Shown piece by piece: positions 17,787 to 25,949 of a stretch of 64,000 bases of DNA (position 1 is the stretch's first letter; each line of letters starts with the position of its first letter). This DNA is from Bacillota bacterium (GTDB lineage Bacteria > Bacillota > SHA-98 > UBA4971): positions 126,116 through 190,115 of the forward strand of contig DUSX01000018.1 in the NCBI GenBank assembly GCA_012842395.1, written 5' to 3'. The notes below the pieces were generated by a model. It saw only the letters and a list, made by a program, of their open reading frames with translations, ran no database searches and was not told the DNA's origin. The translations under genes and the position numbers were made by a program.

Positions 17787-18884
17787 TCACTCGCCGATTC
17801 CCCAAGCACGGCCGGGCCTGATGTGCCGCGTGATCCTTCCCACAGCGGCGATGCGTTCCTCGGCAAGCCTGTCGGCAGCCTTGTATGTTGGGATGCCGTC
17901 GCGCCGCGATATCTCGACTACCTTGAGCATCGTGTCGTAGATGCCGGCGGCTTTGCGCAGAGCCCGCTCTCGGTTGTACCCGAACAGCCCGTCCGCGACG
18001 TTGATCACGCCACCAGCGTTAATGATGTAGTCAGGAGCATAGAGGATTCCCATGTCTTGCAGCGCGTCGCCGTGACGATCCTCTTGCAGTTGGTTGTTGG
18101 CGGAGCCTCCGACGATCTTGCATTTGAGCCTGGGGATGGTCTCGTCGTTCAGGACGGCGCCGAGTGCACACGGGGCGAAGATATCGCACTCGACGTCGAA
18201 TATGGCGTCGGGCTCCACAGCCTGCGCCCCGAGATCACGTACGGCCCTTTCGACCTTGTCAGGGAATATATCTGTTACGATGAGCCTTGCGCCATCGTCG
18301 CGAAGGTGTTTACCTAGGTGATAGCCCACGCTTCCTACCCCTTGGATGGCCACGGTGAGACCTCTGAGCGAGTCGCTGCCGAAAACGATCTTGGCACAGG
18401 CAGCAAGACCTCGCCAGACGCCGTACGCGGTCACCGGACCGGGGTCGCCGCTTCCTCCGGACGCGCTGGAAGAACCGCCGACCCACCTGGTCTCGCATCT
18501 AATGGTCTCAACATCGTCCACCGTGATGCCGACATCCTCGCCTGTGATAAACCTGCCGCCGAGAGTGTCCACGAACCGACCGAATGCCCTGAAAAGCTCC
18601 TCGGACTTGTCCCTTCTCGGGTCGCCTATGATGACGGCCTTGCCGCCACCGAAATTCAAGCCCGCTGCAGCGTTCTTGTAAGTCATCCCGCGAGCAAGGC
18701 GGAGCGCGTCGACGATCGCCTCCTCTTCGGTGTTGTACGGCCACATGCGTGTGCCACCCAAGGCCGGGCCGAGAGTGGTGTCGTGGATGACGATTATCGC
18801 CCGCAAGCCGGCCGATGCGTCGCTGCAGAAGAGGACCTGCTCGTAGCCGTGTTTCCTCATCGCGTCAAACAGGTTCACCATCAT
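17787..18884 (-). CDS. Leucine dehydrogenase
   Basis: 365 aa. NAD-dependent oxidative deamination of branched-chain amino acids (reversible), linking leucine, valine and isoleucine to their 2-oxo acids. It closely follows the Bacillus leucine dehydrogenase pattern: [41 protein letters not shown] (catalytic Lys70 and Lys82), [27 protein letters not shown], the Rossmann motif GVGSVGYH, and [18 protein letters not shown]. The start is an ATG at 18884 with AAGGAGG just upstream. It stands alone, convergent with the ECF gene and divergent from the SOS cassette. Confidence 0.93.
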
Positions 18885-19136
18885 ACCTCCTTGTTCTGGA
18901 GTTTCCGCAGGGAAGCTTTGGAGTGAGGGCTGCCGACGGCGGAATCTATCCGCCAGCACGGCGCTTTGACAAAGGCTCTTTCCCCCTTTCGCATGGACTT
19001 CAGTGTAACCCTTGTGGCCCCTGAGGTGTGCGCGTGGGTCGTTTTGTGTCTTGCGTCGTTGGCGTTGTCGCCACTTAGTTGTTGGACACATCGGTATGAA
19101 TTCCTTCTGTACCAAGGGGATATGGCAGGATTTGTC

Positions 19137-19166
19137 TTGACAGGAAGGGTAGCGACCCAATATACT
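19137..19166 (+). promoter_or_regulatory. Sigma-A promoter of the SOS mutagenesis cassette
   Basis: TTGACA (19137-19142), an 18-base spacer and TATACT (19161-19166). A LexA box begins 8 bases after the -10, over the predicted start site. Confidence 0.85.
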
Positions 19167-19173
19167 ATTAATG

Positions 19174-19187
19174 CGAACACACGTTCG
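19174..19187. promoter_or_regulatory. LexA (SOS) box
   Basis: CGAACACACGTTCG matches the Bacillus-type LexA/DinR operator CGAAC-N4-GTTCG exactly and as a perfect inverted repeat. Its position over the transcription start predicts repression until DNA damage. lexA is not in this window. Confidence 0.92.
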
Positions 19188-19216
19188 TCATAAGTACTTG
19201 ATGTCTTTGAGGAGCT

Positions 19217-20686
19217 GTGAAGATGAGACCCGCGTCGACGGTGGTAGCCCACGTCTGGGTGCCTGGTTTCTATGCGAAGGCTGAGGCCATGTTGAACTCA
19301 CGCCCGAAGGAGGTGCCCGTGGTGATAGTTGGGGAAGATAAGAAAGTCATGGATATATCGCCTGGGGCAAGAAGAAAGGGCGTGAAGCTTGGAATGTCTC
19401 TTTCCGTGGTGCGGCTCATGTGCCCGGAGGCCGTCGAGGTGAATTATGTCCCTGAAAGATACGATAGCCTTGCCAGCAGTGTGTGGGAGGCATGCGCACG
19501 CCATAGCTTGGCCGTCGAGCCTTTGGCCCAGCATGAGGCCTTTATCGACCTTTCGGGATGTGCCGATGTGCTGGATGCGATCGAAAGATTATCCCAAAGC
19601 ATAAGGGCGGTCGTTAACAGCTGCCCAGCGTTTGGGGTGGCGCGTTGTAAACTAGTGGCGCGGGTGGCTTCAGGGGTGCTTGAGGAGTCGAGGAGGGTCA
19701 TATATGGCAAAACGCTTGGAAGTCCTTGCCCTCGCCGGCCAGGATCCTATCCTCATCTTGAAGGAGAAGGCCAAGCCGGGCGGTTGACGCCCAATTCGGC
19801 ACGAGGGCCTAGGAACGCGTTGATCGTTATCGGGAAGGAGAAAGAATTCCTCGCCCCTATGCCCGTGGGCGTGCTTTGGCCCCTTGATGAGGGTGTGATC
19901 GAGCGGCTCCGGCGCCTCGGCATGTGGCGGGTCTGCGATGTGCTGGCGATGGGAAGATCGGCTCTAATTGAAGTGTTGGGTGAGCCAGGGCACGTCGTTT
20001 ACGAGCTCTGCCTTGGCATAGATCGGTCGAAGGTGATCCCCGTTTATCCAAAAGAGACGGTAACCTTCAGAAAGGTTTTCGAGGACGAAGTGTCTGATAG
20101 GTCCATTTTGGAACACGTGGTCGAGATGGGTGCCGCCTTCATCGAACAAAGGCTGAACGCCTATGGCGCGATAGCCCGCCGGTGGCGCATCTTACTAGAG
20201 CTCAGCGGCAAAGGTAGCGCGGGCCAGATGGGCCAGATGGTTTACGAGCAACGCCTTTCGAGGCCTTCCAGGTTCTACGGTAGCTGCCTGGAAATATGCA
20301 GAGGGCTCCTACGAGCGGTGCTGGCAGCGCCCGACGAGGCGGCACGATTGCGATCGCAACATGGGCCGCTCCGTTCCGTGAGGGCGCTATCTCTCATAGC
20401 GGCTGATCTCGAGCCCACGACAACGACGTTACGGGTGAGCATGTTCGAGCCACATACAGCTGTTGATCGTGATCAAGTCGTTGAAGCGGTAATGACTCGG
20501 GTGAGAGAGAAGTTCGGGGCGAAGAGTCTTTTCCCGGCGAGCCTGCTTGAATGCGACAGAAGAGATAGGCTTCTGGCGGCCTGGGAGGCTTGTTTGCACT
20601 ATGAGGAGGGTAAACAGGTCGCTTCAGGTAGTGATGCGAAGAGACCGACGTCCGGAGAGATTCTACTGGAACCAGAAATGGCTTAG
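19217..20686 (+). CDS. ImuB-like Y-family polymerase homolog, catalytic acids lost
   Basis: 489 aa. The Y-family fold is recognisable (KVMDISPGARRKGVKLGM for the little-finger-facing palm, RCKLVARVASGV, FLAPMPVGVLWPL). The active site is not intact: the usual HVDMDxFFA is HVWVPGFYA (Trp14 and Pro16 in place of the metal-binding Asp residues), and SxDEAF is AQHEAF (His106, with Glu107 kept). This is the ImuB pattern, a non-catalytic partner linking the error-prone polymerase to the beta clamp. About 40 residues before FLAPMPV (near 170-210) look like an unusual insertion. It is first in a LexA-controlled cassette with a DUF6504 gene and a DnaE2-like gene. No imuA is seen. Confidence 0.82.
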   Translation: MKMRPASTVVAHVWVPGFYAKAEAMLNSRPKEVPVVIVGEDKKVMDISPGARRKGVKLGMSLSVVRLMCPEAVEVNYVPERYDSLASSVWEACARHSLAVEPLAQHEAFIDLSGCADVLDAIERLSQSIRAVVNSCPAFGVARCKLVARVASGVLEESRRVIYGKTLGSPCPRRPGSYPHLEGEGQAGRLTPNSARGPRNALIVIGKEKEFLAPMPVGVLWPLDEGVIERLRRLGMWRVCDVLAMGRSALIEVLGEPGHVVYELCLGIDRSKVIPVYPKETVTFRKVFEDEVSDRSILEHVVEMGAAFIEQRLNAYGAIARRWRILLELSGKGSAGQMGQMVYEQRLSRPSRFYGSCLEICRGLLRAVLAAPDEAARLRSQHGPLRSVRALSLIAADLEPTTTTLRVSMFEPHTAVDRDQVVEAVMTRVREKFGAKSLFPASLLECDRRDRLLAAWEACLHYEEGKQVASGSDAKRPTSGEILLEPEMA

Positions 20687-20846
20687 AGTGATCTCCATCG
20701 TTGACGAGTGGTGTGAGACGGGCGAATGGTGGCGGGGGGAAGGGGAAAGGCATGTTTTCACCGTGCTCACAGATAATCACGGACTATACGAGCTCTGCTG
20801 CGATGGGCACGGCGACGCCTGGCGGCTCACGAAGATATTCGACTAA
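20601..20846 (+). CDS. DUF6504 family small protein of the SOS cassette
   Basis: About 81 aa. The core RFYWNQKWLRVISIVDEW, then ERHVFTVLTDNHGLYELCCD and a terminal WRLTKIFD, matches small proteins or C-terminal domains that accompany ImuB/DnaE2 cassettes (DUF6504). Function is unknown. It overlaps the end of the ImuB-like gene by 86 bases in another frame, implying translational coupling. The start could be the ATG at 20601 (GGGAGG 12 bases upstream) or the in-frame ATG at 20634. Confidence 0.72.
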   Translation: MRRVNRSLQVVMRRDRRPERFYWNQKWLRVISIVDEWCETGEWWRGEGERHVFTVLTDNHGLYELCCDGHGDAWRLTKIFD

Positions 20847-21168
20847 GCAGATCGCCATGAGCGGCCATGAGCGATCGTCATGAGCCCGTGTTGTTCTTCG
20901 ATGTCTGAGTTCCGCCCAGGGTCGCCTATAGATACCCAAGCCCGAGCCCAGAAACTGTGTTCGGCTTGGATGGCATGCACGCAGAGTGCGCTTACGGTGC
21001 GCTTGGAGATCGTTTTGACTTCAACTTCAGCATGCTGTTTCCCTGAAAAGGCCGTTTGAGATAGCTCTACCCCGTTTACGTAACGTCGTCGTTGCTTTCT
21101 ATAAACGATGGCGAAATCCTAGGACGACATGATCTCAGATACAGTCTGCTGATGGAGCCTGGATCGCC
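20847..21168. other. 322-base gene-free stretch inside the SOS cassette
   Basis: No gene is supported. The start contains three near-copies of CATGAGC within 35 bases. A modest AT-rich patch around 21040-21110 could hold an internal promoter, but I find no convincing hexamer pair and no second LexA box. The DnaE2-like gene may be read through from the upstream SOS promoter. Confidence 0.5.
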
Positions 21169-24100
21169 ATGGGGAAGTTCGTGCATCTCCACGTGCATTC
21201 GCATTTTTCATTCCTCGATGGCGCATCGAGCGTCGAGTCTATAGTGAAAAACGCGGCGGAGCTCGGCATGGAGGCCGTTGCCATAACAGACCACGATAAT
21301 CTTTGTGCGGCGGCAAGGCTAACCCGAGCTGCGCAGCGGCATGGGATAAAACCAATCCATGGCGCCGAGGTCACGCTCGAGGATGGGAGTCACCTGGTGC
21401 TCCTGGCAGAAGATCCCGAGGGCTACTCCAACATCTGTGCGATCCTTACCGAGGCTCATATGTCGAGAGATTGGGAAAGGGCCCTCGTGGGCGACGGCAT
21501 GACGCCGTTATCTGGGGAGCGGGCCGTGACGGAGTTCACAAAACGACGCCTCGCACCAAGGGCGTCCCTGTCTTTGCTTGAAGAGCATCATAAAGGGATC
21601 ATAGCGCTTTCCGGGTGCCTTGCGCGGGGGGCCATCCCAGTCCTCGTTCGCACGGGCAAATACAGCCAGGCCCTTGAACTCACTAGGCGTCTCGCGGGGA
21701 TTTTCGGGCGACCTGGATTCTACATCGAACTTCAGAACCTCGCTCTCCCGGGAAGCGACCAGCTCATCTCACGTCTTGTCGAGCTTGCCGACAGGGTGGG
21801 GGTCAGGGTTGTGGCGACCAATGATGTCCACTACTGCAAGAAATCTGAGTTTGCGGTCCACGATGTCCTCACCTGTATCCGCACGCTGACGCGCCTCGAC
21901 GACGTTCATCCCGAACGAAAGCTCAACGCCGAGAACTACTTGAAATCCGTTGACGAAATGATCGCCCTCTTTCATCGCTATCCGGATGCGATAGCGACCG
22001 CCGCAGAGGTTGCCGATAGGTGTTCACCCGGGCTTTTGCTAGACCAGAAGCTCTTCCCGGATTTCGCCCCTCCACGAGGAGCGGGGACGTCCGCCGAGTA
22101 TCTTCGGCACCTTGTATACGAGGGAGCCTCGTCGCGCTACGGCATCATCAACCCTGCGGTAAAGTCCAGGCTCGACCATGAGCTCGAGATCATATGTACC
22201 CTTGGATACGAGGACTATTTCCTCATGGTATGGGATGTGGTGAACTTCGCGCGACAAGAAGGGATCAGGTTCTCGGGCAGGGGTTCGGCCGCGGACTCTG
22301 CCGTGGCGTATTGCCTCTTCATAACGAGCGTGGATCCGATCTCCCGAGGCCTTCTTTTTGAGAGATTCCTCAGTCTCGAGCGGGCGCAGAAGCCTGACAT
22401 CGACATCGATTTCGATGCCAGGAGACGAGATGAGGTGCGGCACTATCTCCAACGCAAATACGGTCCCGAGCGCGTGGCCACGGTGTGCACCTTTAATACG
22501 TTTCAGGCTAGGTCTGCCGTGCGCGATGTAGGGAAGGCCATGGGGTTTCCCCCGGAAGACATAGACATGCTGGCCAAGCGCCTCCCTTACATATGCGCGG
22601 ATGAGATCAGGTCGGCTCTCGAGAAGTACCCTGAGCTTCGTGGAAGCGGTATCCCAGTCGAGAAGTACTCTTGTTTGTTCGAAATATGCGAGGCACTGGC
22701 AGGTGTGCCCCGTCACATCGGGACCCATCTGGGCGGGGTGGTGGCAAGCCGCGTGCCCCTCGTGAGACTGACCCCGCTGCAAATGGCAGCGCGCGGCGTG
22801 GTCATCACCCAGTTTGACAAGGACGACGTAGAGGAGATCGGCTTGATTAAGCTCGATCTTCTATCTCTTCGCATGCTCGCGGCGGTGGAGGACTCCGTGA
22901 GCCTGAGTGGCGTCGACTACCAACGCATCCCCCTCGAGGATAGTGCCACATACGAGATGCTGAACGCAGGAGAAACCATAGGCGCTTTCCAGCTGGAAAG
23001 CCCCGCGCAGCGAGCCCTCCAAGGGCGCCTTGGCGCGAGCACCATCGAGGATATCGTGGCAAGCGTGGCGCTCATCCGGCCCGGTCCCGTGCAGGGGAAT
23101 ATGGTGGAGCCGTTCGTGGCGAGGAGGCGAGGGCTTGAGGAGGTGACCTACGCCCATCCCGGCCTTGAGAAGATTCTTAAGAAGACGTATGGCGTGGTGC
23201 TCTACCAGGAGCAGGTGATCGAGATCGCGACGGCCATAGCCGGTTTTACACCGGGAGAATCCGATCGCTTGCGAAAGGTGATGACCCATTACCGCTCTAG
23301 AGCGGAAATGGATGAGATAGGAAGGGAATTCGTGAAAAAGGCGATGGAACATGGGACCTCCCGAGAAGTCGCCGAGACTGTGCTGTCATACATAGTTGCC
23401 TACGCCGGTTATGGCTTCTGTGAAGCTCACGCGGCGGCTTTTGCGGATACAGCCTACAAGACGTCGTACCTGTTGCGCCATTTTCCTGTGGAATTCTACA
23501 CGGCCGTCCTAAACAATCAGCCCATGGGCTTTTACCCGCCGAACACCATATGTGTGGAAGCCAGGCGACGCGGGATCAGGATCTTGCCGGTTGACATAAA
23601 CAAGAGCGCCGAGAGGTTCACGATCGAGGACGGCGCAATACGCGTGGGGCTTCTCAGAGTACGGGGTATGAGCGAGGAGACGGCAGCAAGGATAATTGCA
23701 CGCAGGGGACTGCGGGGGTATTCCTCCGTTGAGGATTTCTTCGCGCGGGTGCCACTAGACCGAGACCTCCTCGAAAACCTGGTCCTCTGCGGCGCATTCG
23801 ATTCCCTGTGCCCTAACCGCAGGGCTGTGCTTTGGGGGATCTCCCGGCTCTTGCAGGGGTCGGGAGGAATCGGTGACAGTGTCCTGAACCTCGAAGACTG
23901 TGGCCTTTCAGATATCGCAACTGATGGCACTGACAGCGCCATAGCCGGCGCTCACGGCGATGCTGATGCCAGTGATTGTTTTGGCGTCCGTCGTACATCA
24001 GATGCCTGGGTGCGGAACCAGCGTGCCCAAAGCGGCCGCTCTTTGTGCGAGCTCTGGGACATACCTGACTTTTCCGAGGTCGAGAAATTCAAGCACGAGT

Positions 24101-24468
24101 TCTACATACTGGGCCTTCATCCTACAAGGCACCCAATGGAGTTTTATCGGGATAGCCTGGCGAAAAAGGGGGTGCTCACGGCCGCCGCTGCGAAGAAGAT
24201 GGATTCCGGCGCGAGCGTACGAGTTGCTGGAGTGGTGGTCAGGCCGCATCGTCCCCCAACCCGAAGCGGGAGGGTCGTGGTTTTTTTCTCGCTCGAAGAC
24301 GAAACAGGCCTCATAGACGTAACCGTGTTCGAAGGCGTGTATAGGCGCTGTGGAGGCGCGATGTTCACAAGCCCGATCCTCGTCGTCGAGGGACGTGTGG
24401 AGCGACGGGGCAACGCTGTGAGCGTTACCTGCCGTCGCGTCCGAAAGGATCTCTTGTCCTCGTACTGA
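21169..24468 (+). CDS. DnaE-type DNA polymerase III alpha subunit, probable error-prone DnaE2/ImuC
   Basis: 1099 aa. The N-terminal PHP domain has HLHVHSHFSFLDGAS and ITDHDN. The C-family palm contains the catalytic PDIDIDFDARRRDEV (Asp410, 412, 414) and FSGRGSAADSAVAY. The fingers, helix-hairpin-helix and a C-terminal OB-fold (VRVAGVVVRPHRPP, VFFSLEDETGLIDVTVF) follow. It is shorter than a typical replicative DnaE and sits with an ImuB-like gene and a DUF6504 gene behind a LexA box, so the translesion (DnaE2) role is favoured. The ATG has GATGGAG upstream. A replicative DnaE cannot be strictly excluded from sequence alone. Confidence 0.85.
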   Translation: MGKFVHLHVHSHFSFLDGASSVESIVKNAAELGMEAVAITDHDNLCAAARLTRAAQRHGIKPIHGAEVTLEDGSHLVLLAEDPEGYSNICAILTEAHMSRDWERALVGDGMTPLSGERAVTEFTKRRLAPRASLSLLEEHHKGIIALSGCLARGAIPVLVRTGKYSQALELTRRLAGIFGRPGFYIELQNLALPGSDQLISRLVELADRVGVRVVATNDVHYCKKSEFAVHDVLTCIRTLTRLDDVHPERKLNAENYLKSVDEMIALFHRYPDAIATAAEVADRCSPGLLLDQKLFPDFAPPRGAGTSAEYLRHLVYEGASSRYGIINPAVKSRLDHELEIICTLGYEDYFLMVWDVVNFARQEGIRFSGRGSAADSAVAYCLFITSVDPISRGLLFERFLSLERAQKPDIDIDFDARRRDEVRHYLQRKYGPERVATVCTFNTFQARSAVRDVGKAMGFPPEDIDMLAKRLPYICADEIRSALEKYPELRGSGIPVEKYSCLFEICEALAGVPRHIGTHLGGVVASRVPLVRLTPLQMAARGVVITQFDKDDVEEIGLIKLDLLSLRMLAAVEDSVSLSGVDYQRIPLEDSATYEMLNAGETIGAFQLESPAQRALQGRLGASTIEDIVASVALIRPGPVQGNMVEPFVARRRGLEEVTYAHPGLEKILKKTYGVVLYQEQVIEIATAIAGFTPGESDRLRKVMTHYRSRAEMDEIGREFVKKAMEHGTSREVAETVLSYIVAYAGYGFCEAHAAAFADTAYKTSYLLRHFPVEFYTAVLNNQPMGFYPPNTICVEARRRGIRILPVDINKSAERFTIEDGAIRVGLLRVRGMSEETAARIIARRGLRGYSSVEDFFARVPLDRDLLENLVLCGAFDSLCPNRRAVLWGISRLLQGSGGIGDSVLNLEDCGLSDIATDGTDSAIAGAHGDADASDCFGVRRTSDAWVRNQRAQSGRSLCELWDIPDFSEVEKFKHEFYILGLHPTRHPMEFYRDSLAKKGVLTAAAAKKMDSGASVRVAGVVVRPHRPPTRSGRVVVFFSLEDETGLIDVTVFEGVYRRCGGAMFTSPILVVEGRVERRGNAVSVTCRRVRKDLLSSY

Positions 24469-24509
24469 CTGAACCGCCTTGTGGCCGCGTGTCTCGGCTC
24501 GGGCCGATG

Positions 24510-25427
24510 TCAAGCGGCCACGCTGTTCTGGTAGTCGTACACGATCCGCGAGATCTCAGCGATCGTGGCGAAGCCCTGATCGATGTCGGGAACATCCTTC
24601 GAGAGCACCACGAGGATGTACGGTCTATTAGCGAACACGATGCCCACATCGTTGGCTACGCCGGAAATGTCACCCTCTTTGTGCGCCACCGTCACCTGCG
24701 GCGGGAGCTTTCCCGGCAAGCCGACGTGGTAGATGGGGTGCGCCATGTCGTCCAGGAGGCGTGAGCCGAGGTCCGGATGAGACCGGTCGAAGTCGAGCAC
24801 GCCTTGGATGTACGCTGCCATGTCCTTGGCACACGTTATATTCTGACCGCCCGGGAACACCATCTCCCCGCCGAGTTCCCGCATGAACTCCGCGATATTG
24901 TCCTTTCCGAGGTGCCGGACGAGCATCCGGTAGGCCACGTTATCGCTTATCGTGATAGCCAGGTTCGCCAATGTCCGAAGGGAGTAACTATCCCCGTCTC
25001 TCGCCGCGAACTGGAGTATCCCGGCCCCATCCTGGTAGTCCGTGGCGCTGTTGTACACGACGCGGTCGTCCCAGCTCGCCTTGCCCTCCGCAACGAGACG
25101 GTTCAGGTAGAGCACAGCGGGGACTTTCACGGTGCTTGCCGCGGTGATGGGCTCGTATTCATTGATTCCGAAGCCCATCCCAGTTTTGAGGTCGCGGAAA
25201 TACACGCCGTATGTGGCGGGCTGCGACTTTATATAAGCCTCGAGCTCGGCCTTGAGTGGCGTGTAGTCTGGTCGCGCCTCGGACGAGCCTGCTTCTCTAC
25301 CCATACCGTTCCCGGCCGGGATGTCGTGGCGCGTCGACCCGCCCCAATAGAGCAGCGACCCGGCGCCCAGAAAAGCTATTGCGATAACAAGGCCGAGGGC
25401 GCGGTAGACGCGGTTTCTCATGGCCAT
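24510..25427 (-). CDS. Serine hydrolase of the class A beta-lactamase fold, membrane-anchored
   Basis: 305 aa. An N-terminal hydrophobic segment (residues 10-28) anchors or exports it. The catalytic motifs of the penicillin-binding/beta-lactamase fold are SxxK (Ser98-Thr-Val-Lys101) and SDN (161-163); the third box is KEG (250-252) in place of KTG. I cannot find the omega-loop ExxLN glutamate of true class A beta-lactamases, so hydrolysis of beta-lactams is doubtful; a cell-wall or esterase role is as likely. The ATG at 25427 has AAAGGAGG just upstream. It converges on the DnaE2-like gene. Confidence 0.82.
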   Translation of the reverse strand: MAMRNRVYRALGLVIAIAFLGAGSLLYWGGSTRHDIPAGNGMGREAGSSEARPDYTPLKAELEAYIKSQPATYGVYFRDLKTGMGFGINEYEPITAASTVKVPAVLYLNRLVAEGKASWDDRVVYNSATDYQDGAGILQFAARDGDSYSLRTLANLAITISDNVAYRMLVRHLGKDNIAEFMRELGGEMVFPGGQNITCAKDMAAYIQGVLDFDRSHPDLGSRLLDDMAHPIYHVGLPGKLPPQVTVAHKEGDISGVANDVGIVFANRPYILVVLSKDVPDIDQGFATIAEISRIVYDYQNSVAA

Positions 25428-25949
25428 CCTCCTTTCCCTGTGTTTCACCGCTTCATTATAGGACGCTCGAGGCACGATGGCCATGGTAGTTTGTGGGTCA
25501 CGATGCGAAATCCGCATTGATGCCAGCGTGATTAGAAGGAAAACTCCAAATCGCGTGGAACTACAACCCACGCTCGTACCGCGGTGAGGCGATCGTGCCA
25601 CAGAGGACCGCTGGGGGAGAGTGGGAGGCGGAGTCGCACAACCGGTGAGCCTGGCCCGGCAACTTTGCCCTGATCCGGAAGGAATCCACATGGTCGAGGC
25701 GAATAATCGTACGGGAGGTCATCGGCTGCGTCGCGTTGCCGTCACCCCATGGTATGACGTGCGGTCCGTCGATGGCCTACGTCGGTGGTCTGCAATGATG
25801 TGACGTCGAGTTATCGACTGAGGTTGAGAGGAGGTGGTGGGCAGGCACCAGAGCAACGCCTGCAAGTCTGCCTTGGGCTCCTGGATGGGTTGGGAGCAAA
25901 AGGGTTCCGGAGAACAACTTTGGGAAGGCAAGAAGGAGGCTAGGCTTCG
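25428..25949. other. 522-base gene-free stretch before the ABC importer
   Basis: It lies between the divergent serine hydrolase and solute-binding protein genes. I see no supportable gene. The last 130 bases are purine-rich and end in AAGGAGG before the importer start. No convincing promoter pair, riboswitch or T-box motif was recognised. Confidence 0.45.

Follow-up and report, generated by a model that had tools for sequence, protein, structure and literature searches.

We analysed a window of 64,000 nucleotides (nt) from a Bacillota bacterium (GTDB lineage Bacteria; Bacillota; SHA-98; UBA4971; assembly GCA_012842395.1, contig DUSX01000018.1, positions 126,116 to 190,115), in which a putative DNA damage cassette occupies positions 19137-24468. 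Read 5' to 3' on the plus strand, this cassette consists of a promoter, a LexA box, a gene for a dead Y-family polymerase homologue, a DUF6504 gene and the second dnaE gene of the genome. The sigma-70-type promoter TTGACA-18-TATACT (19137..19166) matches the consensus at 11 of 12 positions, and the LexA box CGAACACACGTTCG (19174..19187), a perfect palindrome, lies 7 nt past the -10 hexamer and over the expected transcription start, where the original prediction had placed it. The gene of the Y-family homologue (iPolY or ImuY-like; 19217..20686; Pfam IMS, E = 2.8e-19) more likely starts, by eye, at the ATG at 19223, 8 nt after AGGAG, than at the GTG at 19217. As predicted, it is followed by a DUF6504 protein of 70 residues (20634..20846; PF20114, E = 1.9e-11), whose likely ATG start at 20634 implies a 53-nt overlap with the end of the preceding gene (the longer open reading frame, ORF, from 20547 being mechanical), and, after a gap of 322 nt, by a DnaE-type polymerase of 1099 residues (21169..24468) that its place in a clade of cassette DnaEs assigns to the DnaE2 type. 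The whole is probably a DnaE2 cassette with a split ImuB, of the kind known as imuY-imuB-C-dnaE2 and called DnaE2X-iPolY-ImuBC-RecA in PMC12926913, and its three LexA-controlled genes probably enable copying across damaged DNA.

The ORF at 19217-20686 does contain the two altered motifs previously read in it, HVWVPGFYA (motif 1, 19250..19276) and AQHEAF (motif 3, 19526..19543), which align with HIDMDAFFA and SIDEAF of the DinB of the same genome. The claim that the catalytic acids are lacking stood for two of the three residues that we take to be catalytic in this alignment, the first Asp being replaced by Trp and that of the DE pair by His, but not for the Glu of the pair, which is retained. 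None of the 41 cassette Y-homologue rows carries the active-site motifs of our rule, which are found in the DinB of this genome; 14 of the 40 rows used in the LexA box scan below start no earlier than positions 67 to 90 of the model and hence are without the first motif. Judging from these substitutions, the cassette Y homologue is catalytically inactive. Its AlphaFold model was weak (predicted local distance difference test score, pLDDT, 55.8), with Y-family structures as best Foldseek matches, and only this overall likeness was used.

The tail of the protein contains two short segments that could support a scaffolding role. The clamp-binding-like motif LRVSMF (20429..20446), identified by eye in alignments, is clear in relatives, where it reads QVDMF, QLNLF or QLSLF. 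It is followed by a motif resembling the RecA N-terminus (RecA-NT), AVDRDQVVEAVMTRVREKFGAKSLFP (20459..20536): a profile comparison of PolY tails from 18 of the 41 PolYs, picked for clear tails, with 25 RecA N-termini gave 88% over 26 columns and a score of 27.9, while the highest values from 100 shuffles were 33% and 19.3. The RecA-NT motif is thus supported, not overwhelmingly so; a comparable difficulty in detecting it is described in PMC6511836.

The identity of the DUF6504 protein was established by comparing profiles, because a Pfam search of the one proteobacterial ImuB tried gave no match. The profile of 43 cassette DUF6504 proteins matched that of 9 proteobacterial ImuB proteins (96.2%, E = 1.6e-9) up to the last ImuB residue; a repeat gave 95.7%, while 100 column shuffles gave at most 1.7%, and no match was obtained to the rest of ImuB or to iPolY. 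Moreover, the 80-residue protein encoded between imuY and dnaE2 in Deinococcus deserti (locus L231), named ImuB-C in PMC8072749, is annotated as DUF6504 in RefSeq and scores over the Pfam cut-off of this family (30.0 vs 24.2 bits). The AlphaFold model of the window protein is a confident all-beta domain (pLDDT 90.5), for which we found no convincing relative in the PDB by sequence (best E = 0.42) or by fold (best E = 0.36). DUF6504 is, on these profile matches, the stand-alone C-terminal domain of ImuB. A full-text search of an open-access library for "DUF6504" returned no paper, so that this identity may not yet have been published with the DUF6504 name. The original prediction had presented DUF6504 as a new occupant of the cassette; this did not hold, since it is the ImuB C-terminal domain encoded apart, and the cassette is therefore largely ordinary. 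Cassettes combining a dead PolY, ImuB-C and DnaE2 without ImuA are already described in PMC3765255, PMC6511836, PMC8072749 and PMC12926913.

Sites for LexA were scanned with the pattern CGAACNNNNGTTCG, which replaced a 16-nt pattern, TCGAACANNTGTTCGA, that had given two sites, neither at the promoter. Genome-wide counts of CGAACNNNNGTTCG revealed no enrichment: we obtained 4 palindromic sites, compared with 7 matches per strand for a reversed control pattern, and the window contains 2 sites at up to one mismatch for 3.0 expected. As a single perfect box is thus not significant alone, the argument for LexA rests on its place and its conservation. A box at up to one mismatch was present in 36 of 40 cassettes, the window included, and was perfect in 12 of them, whereas 200 dinucleotide shuffles of the same cassettes gave a mean of 0.3 cassettes with a box and a maximum of 2. 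The 40 cassettes, which are mutually related and not 40 independent cases, were those of the window, of nine genus or family relatives and of 30 other members of the phylum, each scanned over the 460 nt surrounding the start of its Y homologue; an Abditibacteriota plasmid was left out, as were genomes in which the DUF6504-dnaE2 pair has no PolY next to it. Among the four cassettes without a box at this threshold, three hold sites with two mismatches and one (G082) holds none. The cassette of G143 is divided, its Y homologue and its DUF6504-dnaE2 pair lying about 7 kb apart, and there is a LexA box at each half (L130:3128-3141 and L216:1421-1434). LexA control of the three genes is strongly supported at the level of sequence.

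Elsewhere in the genome, lexA is preceded by CAAACATATGTTCG and CAAACGGTTGTTCG, with one mismatch each, and by CGAACATATGTTTC, with two. The stretch examined before recA (L014) contains no LexA box at up to one mismatch, and recA may for this reason fall outside the SOS regulon. A second perfect LexA-type box, CGAACACATGTTCG (L015:2162-2175; G000:C27:17161-17174), before which promoter-like hexamers can be seen by eye, overlaps a listed ORF at its 5' end; this ORF, whose product weakly matches an RNase H-like family (RVT_3, E = 4.7e-05), is a possible further SOS gene. A LexA box also accompanies the reduced DUF6504 and dnaE2 set of two genomes, G115 (L140) and G077 (L154).

Two DnaE proteins were found in the genome, one being that of the cassette; a search of 31 genomes, this one included, gave a counterpart of the other in every case. 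No PolC scored over its cut-off in this genome. The original prediction had named, as a result that would speak against it, a cassette DnaE that clusters with replicative DnaE as the only copy of the genome; this did not occur, the protein being a second copy outside the DnaE1/DnaE3 clade. In a tree of 30 rows, 15 cassette DnaEs formed one clade (100/99), apart from 8 DnaE1/DnaE3 rows (100/100) and from 5 DnaE2 rows linked to ImuA and ImuB (100/100). The cassette clade was recovered again (12 rows, 96/97) when rows from Deinococcus, Thermus, Thermomicrobium and Rubrobacter were added; the branch that would order the DnaE groups was weak (60/98). The two trees contain 30 of 63 and 28 of 68 collected rows, hand-chosen to span the groups. 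In an earlier tree of all 63 rows, the support of the cassette clade was 45; its G023 row had been translated in the wrong frame and stood on a very long branch, and after its replacement we rely on the two trees above. The first two catalytic Asp residues of the polymerase (PDIDIDF, 22396..22404, aligned with D401/D403 of Escherichia coli) and the third (22855..22857, aligned with D555) are all present, as they are in each of the 68 DnaE rows; the alignment showed no clamp motif at the usual place in the cassette DnaE2. We regard this protein as a DnaE2-type extra copy, with a role that its clade suggests to be non-replicative.

The metal site of its PHP domain, HHDHEHCDH (residues 8 to 221; 21190..21831), agrees with the published motif at all nine positions. 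DnaE2 proteins are described as being without this site, with few exceptions (PMC12926913), and a subgroup of Actinobacteria is given as an exception in PMC3919608. Counted over eight safely aligned positions, the median number of ligands was 7 in the cassette clade (35 rows; lowest 4, in a truncated row), 1 in DnaE2 linked to ImuA and ImuB (7 rows), 0 in Deinococcus/Thermus (3 rows) and 8 in DnaE1 (16 rows). This retention is not unique to the cassette clade, because the DnaE2 of Thermomicrobium also keeps 7 of the 8. Since the site is nearly intact in this clade, the putatively damage-induced DnaE2 of the window may proofread and may be less error-prone than the DnaE2 proteins tested so far. 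A variant compatible with the split-ImuB interpretation follows, in which the LexA-controlled cassette would serve mainly accurate tolerance or gap filling through proofreading by the PHP domain, and not mutagenesis. The nine conserved positions of the window protein and the clade median speak for it; nevertheless, all nine letters occur in just 3 of 35 clade members, Asp gives way to Asn at the eighth position in 24 of the 35, the sixth is occupied by Tyr in the five genus relatives (a less safely aligned position, at which only 2 of 16 DnaE1 rows have His), and metal ligands alone are no proof of activity. We retain this variant as a tentative possibility. A broader scenario appears doubtful to us, in which the LexA-induced DnaE2 of this Firmicute lineage kept a working PHP 3'-5' exonuclease and the split-ImuB complex, able to correct its own errors, represents an earlier and more accurate mutasome; loss of proofreading would then have given rise to the mutagenic forms, ImuA-ImuB-DnaE2 and that of Deinococcus.

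The absence of imuA, already claimed in the original prediction, was borne out as far as the genome could be searched: RecA was the sole match of PF00154, of NF033429 and of a profile built from 7 ImuA proteins of plasmids. The last profile was used because NF033429 is a weak detector of ImuA, exceeding its cut-off in none of 14 control genomes. Given that no ImuA was found and that the dead polymerase has a RecA-NT-like motif, RecA would be the likely partner. It could still be argued that the locus encodes a canonical ImuA-ImuB-DnaE2 mutasome whose ImuA is elsewhere in the genome or was missed. The dead Y homologue, the LexA box and the DnaE2-type polymerase would fit, NF033429 performs poorly, and a gene might be lost from an assembly that is 98.28% complete in 61 contigs. 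However, the profile of 7 ImuA proteins finds only RecA, the Y homologue is without a fused ImuB-C, which is a separate gene, and the DnaE branches outside the ImuA/ImuB-linked clade, so that we judge this explanation very improbable.

A close DnaE relative (E at most 1e-230) was found in 39 of the 159 genomes of the phylum sampled, that of the window included. In the stretches fetched around them, DUF6504 was beside the DnaE in 36 of 39 and a PolY homologue in 33 of 39 (hand tally; that of G158 is on the other strand). Among the six without an adjacent Y homologue, G031 is cut by a contig end and G143, G062 and G124 have one about 5 to 11 kb away; the last two are G115 and G077. A loss of the dead PolY in five genomes was considered and dropped: in three of them it lies about 5 to 11 kb away, and in the other two the search gave an active DinB alone. 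Within the same family, the sister genus includes 3 genomes, out of 7, that show DinB only. The nine loci from named genomes comprised eight metagenome assemblies (Bacillota or Firmicutes bacterium) and one of Nocardioides bruguierae, at 24% identity.

Related arrangements also occur on plasmids. On an Abditibacteriota plasmid (L066:1106-7177), lexA is followed in turn by a gene for 78 residues, by genes for a dead PolY and a DUF6504 protein, both annotated as hypothetical, and by dnaE2. A plasmid of Thermomicrobium roseum (L234:1104-6569) carries a gene annotated as recombinase A, another whose ImuB-like product is labelled hypothetical, and the gene of the DnaE2 mentioned above. A Rubrobacter plasmid (L235:2986-6791) encodes a protein of 147 residues with a C-terminal DUF6504-like domain, just under the Pfam cut-off, directly followed by a DnaE, with a divergent lexA. 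On a Gluconobacter plasmid, the ImuB-like gene and dnaE2 are separated by an additional small gene of 234 nt (L094:4635-4868). A tblastn search of plasmids and phages with the DUF6504 protein returned nothing and was too insensitive, since plasmids do hold DUF6504 genes.

A close likeness is that to imuY-imuB-C-dnaE2 of D. deserti, which shares with the window LexA control, the lack of imuA and the order of its genes (Y homologue, DUF6504/ImuB-C, DnaE2). In D. deserti, loss of ImuY or DnaE2 is reported to abolish ultraviolet mutagenesis, and in D. ficus to reduce it (PMC8072749). In D. deserti, however, lexA is the first gene of the operon, whereas here it is elsewhere in the genome, and the D. 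deserti DnaE2 falls into a different clade and keeps 0 of the eight PHP ligands counted. The DnaE2X-iPolY-ImuBC-RecA type of Kyrpidia tusciae, likened here by its published description, has the same composition, no imuA and a RecA-NT motif in the Y homologue, and Kyrpidia is also a Firmicute; its operon is described in PMC6511836, where RecA is proposed in place of ImuA, and the DnaE2X type is named in PMC12926913. With the ImuA-ImuB-DnaE2 mutasome of Mycobacterium tuberculosis and Caulobacter, the window shares LexA-type control, a dead Y homologue, an ImuB-C domain and DnaE2, but no ImuA was found, ImuB-C is not fused to the Y homologue, and the DnaE falls outside the clade of the 5 to 7 ImuA/ImuB-linked DnaE2 compared (M. 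tuberculosis not being among them) and has mostly kept its PHP site. ImuB-C was defined in PMC3765255 and noted there with DnaE2, an inactive DinB being present or absent. It likewise adjoins DnaE2 in the DnaE2-[ImuB-C] pairs of PMC12926913, to which the reduced form in G115 and G077 corresponds; the window differs in having a dead Y homologue as well, and the account of these pairs in PMC12926913 places them only in Actinobacteria. By its composition, the window cassette is thus a further member of the split-ImuB kind, already described in Deinococcus and predicted for bacteria of other groups. Four points may be new: that DUF6504 equals ImuB-C, how strongly the evidence speaks for LexA, the occurrence in this phylum of the reduced DnaE2-ImuB-C pair, and the retention of the PHP site.

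We infer a role of the cassette in SOS mutagenesis, along the following lines. DNA damage would lead to RecA filaments and these to self-cleavage of LexA, which would leave the box at 19174 and allow the three genes to be transcribed, an induction predicted from sequence. The dead Y-family protein would act as a scaffold, with its weak clamp-binding-like motif and RecA-like segment in the tail. This segment, present as a motif, would dock the Y homologue on RecA at the stalled fork, replacing ImuA. The detached ImuB-C would join the Y homologue to the PHP face of DnaE2, as AlphaFold models of the M. tuberculosis complex suggest (PMC12926913), and DnaE2 would then synthesise across the lesion, as the genetics of D. 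deserti, with a cassette of the same composition, would lead one to expect (PMC8072749).

Several observations weigh against this split-ImuB interpretation. In the window, the clamp motif has Arg for Gln, so that the search for such a motif called for earlier yielded a clamp-like segment, but a degenerate one. The RecA-NT match drops to 50% against full-length RecA and to 4.7% when both proteins are taken in full, and many of the other PolYs have a degenerate form of the motif (RYPG for RFG). The two genomes G115 and G077 keep DUF6504-dnaE2, and the search for a dead PolY in them gave only active DinB, so that the scaffold is not always needed. The 322-nt gap before dnaE contains one terminator-like site (21080-21095). 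The three Deinococcus/Thermus DnaE2 rows group with the Abditibacteriota row (100/100) and not with the window DnaE; its function is therefore transferred over a long distance. Both DnaE trees lack an outgroup, and a DnaE2 ancestor shared with ImuA/ImuB-linked DnaE2 is not proven by them. Finally, the cassette DnaE exceeds none of the NCBIfam cut-offs for DnaE subfamilies, with close scores for the error-prone type (PRK05672, 885.7) and for DnaE (PRK05673, 875.3). These scores and the nearly intact PHP site, as in DnaE1, would suit an additional polymerase of DnaE1 type, replicative or for repair, of ordinary fidelity and with incidental neighbours, but its clade is separate from DnaE1/DnaE3, all 31 genomes searched have the usual DnaE as well, and the LexA box, like the order of the genes, is conserved from family to family, which leaves this reading hardly credible.

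The surroundings of the cassette were also considered. The promoter at 19137-19166 is the sole plus-strand promoter-like site within 19000-24700; as a scan of both strands gave 2 sites for 2.3 expected, the count itself is no evidence. The same region has 10 terminator-like sites for 4.6 expected, and the 322-nt gap has no promoter-like site and no LexA box at up to one mismatch. Upstream is a divergent dehydrogenase gene (17787-19160) and downstream, on the minus strand and so convergent with dnaE2, a gene (24510-25691) whose product belongs to the Beta-lactamase2 family (E = 1.4e-49) and has a hydrophobic stretch at its N-terminus. The cassette therefore stands alone.

Through these comparisons, the Pfam family DUF6504 gains an identity, that of ImuB-C. 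If the split-ImuB interpretation is correct, the split form of the ImuB mutasome is common in one phylum, in which about a quarter of the sampled genomes (39 of 159) have a close relative of this DnaE, with a conserved LexA box. A DnaE2 clade with a preserved PHP site would, in addition, make the timing of the loss of proofreading in SOS polymerases testable at the bench.

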